From assembly GCA_009773395.1 (NCBI GenBank), contig WRPI01000001.1, positions 124,001 through 188,000 on the forward strand: a DNA stretch of 64,000 nt, given 5' to 3'. The notes below the pieces were generated by a model. It did not search any database. It was not told the DNA's origin and worked only from the letters and a program-made list of their open reading frames with translations. This document shows positions 1,610 through 46,365 of this stretch, one piece after another. The stretch's first letter is position 1, and each line of letters opens with the position of its first letter. The DNA is from Hyphomonadaceae bacterium (lineage in GTDB: Bacteria > Pseudomonadota > Alphaproteobacteria > Caulobacterales > Aquidulcibacteraceae). A program made the translations under genes and the position numbers.

Positions 1610-1638
1610 TTGACAACGGCATATAAATCCTTTCTATG
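1610..1638 (+). promoter_or_regulatory. Candidate sigma-70 promoter for the rpsD leader
   Basis: A perfect TTGACA (1610-1615) is followed after 17 bases by TCTATG (1633-1638), a weak -10. The predicted start near 1645 would lie about 15 bases before the long inverted repeat at 1660, so the whole structured segment would be transcribed. The -10 matches TATAAT at only three positions, so this is tentative. Confidence 0.4.
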
Positions 1639-1659: not shown

Positions 1660-1823
1660 TAGGCTTTGGCAATGCTAAATCGTTGTCAGAGCCGCGATTT
1701 TAGGCGGCAAGATACGAGTAAAAAGACATGCAGGAAGTCTGGACGACTTTCAAATGGCTTTTTGCTTGTAGATTGGCGCATAAAATAGTGGAAATGGCAG
1801 CGATTTAGTGTTGCCAAAGCCTA
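1660..1823 (+). ncRNA. Candidate structured RNA (rpsD leader or independent ncRNA)
   Basis: Bases 1661-1685 pair with 1798-1822 over 25 consecutive positions; the three non-Watson-Crick positions are all G-U. Inside the stem are a GCCGC/GCGGC hairpin (about 1692-1709) and an AAAAAG/CTTTTT stem enclosing an AAGTC-TGGAC-GACTT hairpin (about 1719-1770). A further GTAATGC/GCATTAC hairpin sits at 1856-1873, just before rpsD. The retention of pairing through G-U changes argues for selection at RNA level. Since S4 is a known autoregulator of its own mRNA in other bacteria, a leader sensing S4 is one reading. A free-standing 6S-like RNA, or a small inverted-repeat element flanked by TA, are others. 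Confidence 0.5.
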
Positions 1824-1898
1824 AGTAATGGGAAGTGAAATTCGGCCATTTCAAAGTAATGCATGGGCATTACCCGAACTCACAAATAAGGTATAATA

Positions 1899-6111: not shown

Positions 6112-6128
6112 AAGCCCTTCCCGCAAAC

Positions 6129-6221
6129 TGTCATCCCCGAAAATCCAATGGATTTATCGGGGATCTCAGGGAATTAAAGGACGAGACCCCCGATATTTGC
6201 ACCGCAAATTCGGGGATGACA
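6129..6221 (+). repeat. Double-hairpin palindromic repeat
   Basis: The outer arms TGTCATCCCCGAA (6129-6141) and TTCGGGGATGACA (6209-6221) are perfect complements over 13 bp. Each half also folds on its own: CCCCGAAAATCC with GGATTTATCGGGG, and CCCCGATATTTGC with GCAAATTCGGGG. It fills the gap between two convergent genes. GTCATCCCCG palindromes are widely dispersed in alphaproteobacterial genomes; no second copy was seen in this window. Confidence 0.75.
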
Positions 6222-6229
6222 ATTGTTAG

Positions 6230-34272: not shown

Positions 34273-34450
34273 GGAATGGTCTTAAGAGCAAGTTTGCCTT
34301 AAGCCCATTCTGTTATTGTCCTTCTGCGCCCTAGGTTTTTGTCAAGCCCGCGCTTTGCGCCCGAAGGCTTTGGGGCTTGACAAAAAACTAGGGCGCACAA
34401 CAAACTTGGTGAATGGTTTTGGTGAAACAAGTTTCAGCATAAACCATTCC
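34273..34450. ncRNA. Candidate structured RNA or element between the helicase remnant and fdxA
   Basis: The three nested hairpins listed for the spacer form one unit closed by GGAATGGT/ACCATTCC at its ends. The central 25-bp arms (34325-34349 and 34373-34397) have a single mismatch. There is no T run, no target duplication and no ORF, so terminator and IS readings are weak. Strand cannot be decided. Confidence 0.35.
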
Positions 34451-44988: not shown

Positions 44989-45020
44989 TTGCCTGCCACT
45001 CGCGTCTTCCAATTGCCTGC

Positions 45021-45242
45021 AGGGGAATCGCAAATGGAAATAATCCTCCCATGCGAAACGAAGTGGAGCGGGGGAGGTGGCGCCCGAAGGGTGACGGAGG
45101 GGGCATGAGCGAAGCGAATTTGCGCAGCAAAAACAACTCAGCAAGCTCGCTGCGCTCGCACCCCCTCCGTCTCGCTACGCGAGCCACCTCCCCCGTAACG
45201 CTTCGCGTGACAGGGGAGGATAAACCCATAAGCGATTCCCCT
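45021..45242. repeat. 222-bp imperfect palindrome
   Basis: Several nested arms match: AGGGGAATCGC (45021-45031) with GCGATTCCCCT (45232-45242); GGGGGAGGTGGC (45070-45081) with GCCACCTCCCCC (45183-45194); GACGGAGGGGG (45093-45103) with CCCCCTCCGTC (45161-45171). The arms are separated by unpaired GCGAAGCG-type stretches. CCCTCCGTC/GCCACCTCCCCC motifs belong to dispersed palindromes in many alphaproteobacteria. It ends two bases from the stop codon of the TonB-like gene. Confidence 0.9.
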
Positions 45243-45243
45243 G

Positions 45244-46365
45244 CTATTGCCGGCCACTTGGCAGGCAGGTTATCCCGAAGTTTGAATGTGGGGTGCCGGG
45301 TGGGCAAAGCGGCAGTGGATCGGTTGGTGTTTTTCTCGGAATAACGCTTTTTGGAACTGGCACGTCAACCTTATTGCGGCGGCCGGGTTCAAGCGGGTTC
45401 CAATCGGGGCAACGATCCGAGCGTTCACGGTTAATTTCCGCACATTCGCCAATCCTGCGCATACCTGCCAGACCGCCACTTGCTTCACCATTTTCAAACA
45501 CGTTTCGCCCAGGAACTGGCCCACGCGGTTGGCGCGGAAGTGGCGCAGAGCCGCCAGAGGGTGCGCCACCACTTGCAGCGGGAATACCGCCCCCGACAAC
45601 AGATGTTACTCCTGATGGCCCAGCAGGTGGCCCACCACTGGCAACAGGCGCACCACCGCCACTTGGTGCAAGTTCGCCTCCACTTACTTTGGGCGCAGTG
45701 TTTGGCGCTGCCTCGCTTTGCCTGGCGGCCTCAAGTGCGCGTTGGGCTTCAAGTCGGTTAAGTTCCTCAATGTCGATTGGACGAACATTTGGGGCTTGGA
45801 TTTTTGATATTTGTTGCTTTTTCAGTTTTGATTGGCCAGCAATTTGTTTTGGCACCACTGGCCTTTGCAATTCAATCTGGCGGCTTTGCAAATTCGCTTT
45901 TGGCGTGGGCGCAATAGGGCGCAAATTTGGCACTGTAATTTGCTCTTCGGGTTCATCTTCAATGGTCGGGAGCGTTTGTGTCAATTGTTTTGGCGCTGGA
46001 GTTTTGAGCTTCTTGGCGTTTTCAAGATTTATCGGGTTCACGATTGCGTCAGGCAATGGCGCGTCAAGCGGTGGCGGCTTTATTGCAATATCGGGAACTG
46101 GTTCGAGTTTTTGTTGCGGTGCAGGTTCAGTTTCCACCGTTTTTTCCGGCACTGGTTGCGCCAAATCTGGTTTTGGCTGCGCGATAATTTTGCTTGGCTC
46201 CACGGGCGTTTCATTGGGTATTGGCGCTGGCGTGTTTATAATTTCCACTTTGACAATATTTTTTGGTGGCAATTCAATGGGTGGGATTGTCAGCAACGCC
46301 ATGAAAAACCCAAAATGTAAAATCAGCGCGCTTGCCCATGTCCATTGCCTTGTGTGCGGATGCAT
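45244..46365 (-). CDS. TonB-like proline-rich membrane protein without a TonB C-terminal domain
   Basis: The protein has about 373 residues. Following MHPHTRQWTWASALILHFG, an N-terminal anchor (about 10-30) leads into long Pro/Gln/Glu-rich segments, resembling the periplasm-spanning region of TonB/TolA, then a Gly/Ser/Pro-rich linker (about 225-300) and a C-terminal stretch with two cysteine pairs (RIGECAEINRERSDRCPDW; LPLCPPGTPHSNFGITCLP). The TonB beta domain is missing. Role unknown; a structural link across the periplasm is plausible. ATG 46365 is chosen with AAGAGA upstream. It is 118 bp downstream of the methyltransferase gene on the same strand. Confidence 0.8.
   Translation of the reverse strand: MHPHTRQWTWASALILHFGFFMALLTIPPIELPPKNIVKVEIINTPAPIPNETPVEPSKIIAQPKPDLAQPVPEKTVETEPAPQQKLEPVPDIAIKPPPLDAPLPDAIVNPINLENAKKLKTPAPKQLTQTLPTIEDEPEEQITVPNLRPIAPTPKANLQSRQIELQRPVVPKQIAGQSKLKKQQISKIQAPNVRPIDIEELNRLEAQRALEAARQSEAAPNTAPKVSGGELAPSGGGAPVASGGPPAGPSGVTSVVGGGIPAASGGAPSGGSAPLPRQPRGPVPGRNVFENGEASGGLAGMRRIGECAEINRERSDRCPDWNPLEPGRRNKVDVPVPKSVIPRKTPTDPLPLCPPGTPHSNFGITCLPSGRQ

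Follow-up and report, generated by a model that had tools for sequence, protein, structure and literature searches.

A TA-bounded palindrome in the 5' leader of rpsD in a Hyphomonadaceae bacterium: a probable lineage-specific insertion next to a conserved candidate S4 leader

In the genome of a Hyphomonadaceae bacterium a long imperfect palindrome lies between the promoter and the start codon of rpsD, the gene of ribosomal protein S4, which raises the question of whether it regulates this gene, constitutes an RNA of its own or has reached its position as a mobile element. All three options had been put forward in an original prediction made from the letters of the DNA, namely an S4-binding autoregulatory leader, a 6S-like ncRNA and an IS630-type mini-element. 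We followed them up in the window, i.e. the whole analysed stretch of 64,000 nucleotides (contig WRPI01000001.1, positions 124,001 to 188,000), and in genomes of related bacteria. The features discussed below are compiled in Table 1. The S4 protein encoded here is 79-81% identical to its best Parvularculaceae and Aquidulcibacter matches. As originally predicted, a TTGACA promoter box is located upstream of the palindrome. Of 108 regions upstream of rpsD from alphaproteobacteria, nearly all contain a TTGAC motif. A consensus promoter scanner did not list the rpsD promoter because of its poor -10 box. The rpsD transcript is predicted to start near position 1645, which would place the beginning of the palindrome about 15-20 nt further downstream.

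Table 1. Features at the rpsD locus (positions refer to the window).
Feature	Position	Strand	Details
rpsD promoter	1610-1638	+	TTGACA 1610-1615, 17-nt spacer, TCTATG 1633-1638
Imperfect palindrome, TA-bounded, 164 bp	1660-1823	.	arms 1660-1729 / 1754-1823
Left arm of 25-bp stem	1661-1685	+	sequence
Right arm of 25-bp stem	1798-1822	+	sequence
Conserved rpsD leader of Caulobacterales type; candidate site of S4 autoregulation	1826-1887	+	model R1 match, covariation
Pseudoknot 5' strand ATGG	1828-1831	+	complementarity; partner CCAT 1846-1849
Helix P1	1835-1883	+	fold, covariation; 1835-1838 with 1880-1883, 1841-1845 with 1874-1878
Hairpin P2	1856-1873	+	fold, covariation; 1856-1862 with 1867-1873
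rpsD, ribosomal protein S4, 206 aa	1899-2519	+	ORF

The original prediction had described a stem of 25 positions deviating from Watson-Crick pairing solely by three G-U pairs. This stem is clearly present in the sequence but forms only the outer part of the palindrome, whose arms reach 70 nt each and comprise 54 Watson-Crick, seven G-U and nine purine-purine positions. With a strict palindrome score of 30, where 80 kb of Markov-1 sequence of equal composition gave no more than 14.5, the palindrome is far above chance. No long open reading frame extends across its 164 bp. Folded as RNA, the plus strand of the stretch from 1640 to 1840 (201 nt) yields -108 kcal/mol, compared to -55.0 ± 3.8 kcal/mol for shuffled sequences (z = -14.1) and to -60.6 kcal/mol for the minus strand of the same stretch. 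The predicted shape is a single long rod with small internal loops rather than the proposed branched fold with two internal hairpins, and the modelled helix runs on imperfectly beyond the TA bounds. The TA dinucleotides claimed to flank the stem are found at positions 1660-1661 and 1822-1823. Taken alone, this pair is a weak sign of target duplication because TA is self-complementary and, hence, any palindrome ending in TA exhibits both.

Three more inverted repeats were observed within the window. A second long palindrome (45019-45244; -151 kcal/mol when folded) is likewise imperfect and comparable to that upstream of rpsD in size and stability. Unlike the latter, it is a multi-copy mosaic repeat with copies of up to 90% identity on other contigs of the genome. 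An imperfect inverted repeat at 6126-6224 has arms of 42 nt and contains TGTCATCCCCGA within its ends, while the 28-nt arms of a repeat at 34322-34400 are 93% complementary, the right one harbouring a TTGACA box.

The origin of the palindrome was examined by comparison with rpsD upstream regions of other bacteria, drawn from 80 genome contigs as well as from 41 genomes that had been searched as relatives. None of the other rpsD upstream regions examined, those of the four congeners included, contains the palindrome. The distance from the -35 box to the ATG amounts to 127, 127, 128 and 128 nucleotides in the four congeners compared to 289 in the window. The difference between 289 and 127 is 162, which equals the TA-bounded palindrome counted with one TA. 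Similarly, among 61 measurable leaders TTGAC lies 39 to 82 nucleotides before the conserved leader and its pseudoknot in 60 relatives and 218 nucleotides before it in the window. Between promoter and leader the congeners possess nothing but a short hairpin (5-6 bp), and in most relatives with sufficient room the same place is occupied by a hairpin that measures about 5-12 bp and varies in sequence and length. If the flanks of the palindrome are rejoined at one TA, they are predicted to form a short hairpin resembling that of the congeners. The conserved leader remains intact 3' of the palindrome arms. Since the jump in spacing, the match of 162 bp and the short hairpin in both the congeners and the joined flanks coincide, a discrete insertion is the simplest reading. 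The palindrome is therefore probably a lineage-specific, TA-bounded insertion of 162 bp of MITE- or foldback-like type within the 5' leader of rpsD. TA is present on both sides of the palindrome and the excess of 162 bp would agree with a target duplication, the corresponding sites of the congeners being too diverged to display a single TA. Such ends would suit a target of IS630/Tc1 type, though a palindrome ending in TA shows both regardless.

Whether this insert belongs to a family of mobile elements was addressed by searching for further copies and for a partner transposase. In the genome the palindrome is single-copy; other copies of the arms with varied flanks, by which according to the original prediction a mobile element might be recognised, were not found. 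Nor is there a second copy in 60 genomes of the family, 398 of the order and 385 of the class (overlapping sets), the order and class genomes offering no copy at an E value of 0.001 over any useful length. Phages, plasmids and viral contigs (IMG/VR) contained nothing relevant to the palindrome, and the terminal 21-mer, allowing for up to three mismatches, matched the family genomes at about chance level only. The DDE_3 (IS630-type) transposase domain was not found in the genome. Weak BLAST matches in G001, G069 and others were rejected as chance, and the loci L115, L116, L120, L147 and L148 lack a matching palindrome. The search of the class genomes also produced one 33-base match in G671. Accordingly, of the features that define a MITE, shortness, lack of coding capacity and terminal inverted repeats are present, while multiple copies and an autonomous partner with matching ends were not found. 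The palindrome thus behaves like a palindromic insert, its membership in a MITE family being unproven. The proposal of an IS630-type mini-element gains from the precise addition of 162 bp relative to four congeners and loses from the lack of a further copy and of an IS630-type transposase. Nevertheless, a mobile mini-element is the best supported of the three originally proposed candidates. RUP, Correia/NEMIS and ERIC are MITEs of 107-155 bp which reside in untranslated regions and are transcribed (PMC2229807), and the palindrome is akin to them in being short, in carrying no transposase gene and in its terminal inverted repeats and TA ends. In contrast to the palindrome, which is single-copy and without a known partner transposase, they constitute families of many copies.

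The small hairpins of the relatives also make a different origin conceivable, in which such a short, variable hairpin was enlarged in place without the help of a transposon, through template switching or inverted duplication in the course of replication. Their occurrence in most relatives at exactly the same site would suit this reading, as would the presence of a single copy without a partner, which agrees with a local origin, and the imperfect extension of the helix outside the TA bounds. The excess in size, however, corresponds exactly to the TA-bounded unit, and the closed flanks retain a small hairpin of their own. Moreover, intermediate lengths were not observed, the next longest spacing after 218 being 82. 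On balance, we regard enlargement in place as unlikely, albeit as the most serious competitor of a discrete insertion.

A further possibility is that the long hairpin itself is a selected RNA, which might be bound by S4, serve as a control site for RNase III or give rise to a processed small RNA. The original prediction had taken the G-U pattern of the stem to favour RNA. Read on the plus strand, all 16 non-Watson-Crick positions of the arms are indeed either G-U or purine-purine, with not a single A-C or pyrimidine-pyrimidine mismatch among them (two-sided p = 3e-5 against an even split, in a test devised post hoc when the data had already been seen). The bias is thus real and wider than originally stated, and in the broader register 1660-1741 it amounts to 22 versus 4 positions (p = 5e-4). 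In the comparison palindrome at 45019-45244 the ratio is 13 to 7, i.e. the strand bias does not occur to the same degree. This asymmetry reflects a strand-specific history, either selection at the RNA level or a mutation or composition bias of the transcribed strand. As strand-biased mutation in a transcribed region yields the same pattern of mismatches, it explains the observation equally well. Judged from these mismatches, the palindrome has probably resided in a context transcribed in the plus direction, and a long residence there would agree with them. Selection as an RNA would also be in line with the far higher stability of the plus strand fold and with the modelled ability of the rod base to capture the pseudoknot strand AAUGG of the adjoining leader, from which its forced separation is calculated to cost about 4.5 kcal/mol because the hairpin base takes up bases of this strand. 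On the other hand, an orthologue of the palindrome exists in no congener, and between palindrome and rpsD there is no terminator-like site, hence no obvious free RNA. We consider a selected hairpin improbable. Searches of Rfam, which had been suggested along with the RNA candidates, revealed no family match for the palindrome at the gathering score and, at E 10, nothing besides a chance microRNA match of 16.6 bits with respect to a cut-off of 83. The 6S-like ncRNA of the original prediction, to which a long rod-like fold of less than 200 nt beside a promoter would conform, can, barring a second 6S gene, practically be dismissed since the palindrome does not match the RF00013 covariance model and the genome has its own 6S candidate on another contig. 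This probable 6S RNA (L001, G000:C4:143418-143577) scores 42.5 bits, just below the cut-off of 46.4, with an E value of 3.2e-7.

That the stem itself represents an S4-binding leader is contradicted by the relatives, none of which has the palindrome. As regards the location this proposal comes close, a conserved rpsD leader directly adjoining the palindrome at 1826-1887. The structure of this leader, common to 62 distinct rpsD upstream sequences from Caulobacterales and near relatives (L005-L113), consists of an outer helix P1, a hairpin P2 and a conserved loop between them whose CCGU pairs with an ACGG 5' of P1. The two strands of this pseudoknot, which were located independently of each other, are complementary in 62 of 62 sequences, with ACGG/CCGT occurring 50 times, ATGG/CCAT seven times and CTGG/CCAG five times, as counted by a motif script, the respective columns being out of register in the MAFFT and model alignments. 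These three combinations follow clades, which suggests few independent changes, though at least two. Taken together, P1 and P2 show pairing in 90.3% of the cells and changes on both sides in 217 cells. The covariation score is 0.580, compared to 0.184 for shuffles and at most 0.151 for slid controls, with the proviso that fitting the alignment to the model works in favour of the structure. A conserved, covarying structure upstream of rpsD, as expected of an S4 leader, is thus present at 1826-1887. The window's own leader is divergent. It matches model R1 with 17.2 bits (E value 1.1e-4 in a search of 331 bases), its sequence having been part of the seed, and was not reported by the model in wider searches. 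The model built from the leader sequences finds matches in nine of the 385 class genomes, including all four other genomes of the same order. At the gathering score, Rfam 15 yields no match in the window or in 13 alphaproteobacterial rpsD loci.

The ligand of such leaders is usually inferred from the downstream gene, and in this way the gene points to S4 as the ligand of 1826-1887. This leader is a better candidate for S4 autoregulation than the palindrome. If there is any regulation by S4, it most likely operates through this leader rather than through the palindrome. With the S4 leader of the E. coli alpha operon it shares a pseudoknot, and like the B. subtilis rpsD leader and the S4 leaders listed in PMC7247131 it is a structured leader of rpsD. 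In contrast to known S4 leaders, it matches no Rfam model, and the palindrome forms no part of its structure. The S4 leaders given in Table 1 of PMC7247131 come from Bacteroidia, Clostridia, Flavobacteria and Fusobacteriales only, none being alphaproteobacterial; an earlier report outside the open-licence literature is possible. Two further types of rpsD leader were noticed, a Rhizobiales-type (L041, L045, L056, L062) with conserved AGGAGGGCGCGTTTCCTT...AAGGAAA and a Rhodobacterales-type (L066, L069, L086, L090) with conserved GGACAACGCCCTTC...GAAGGAG, both apparently able to mask the ribosome-binding site.

For the palindrome as a discrete insertion, we envisage an arrival by TA-targeted transposition or by some other one-step insertion. 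A transcript from the rpsD promoter would then contain the hairpin first and the conserved leader thereafter. RNase III may cut the hairpin, as general knowledge and the case of the NEMIS stem-loops, which are proposed RNase III targets, would suggest; for ERIC an effect on mRNA stability has been proposed (PMC2229807). The palindrome would be tolerated since the downstream leader still folds independently, and P1 and P2 are indeed predicted to form with the hairpin present. A slight interference of the hairpin with the pseudoknot is possible according to the fold calculations. That the palindrome has been co-opted into a two-part leader, in which the giant hairpin tunes the S4 leader via its base overlapping 1827-1831 or via RNase III cutting, appears very doubtful to us.

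By itself the palindrome is a modest curiosity, a natural test of how far a very stable hairpin is tolerated within the leader of a ribosomal gene that is essential. The more interesting result is the leader at 1826-1887. The rpsD gene of alphaproteobacteria is located away from the alpha operon, and why this is so has been described as open (PMC10931766). With a separate leader at this locus, S4 would have a means of autoregulation.
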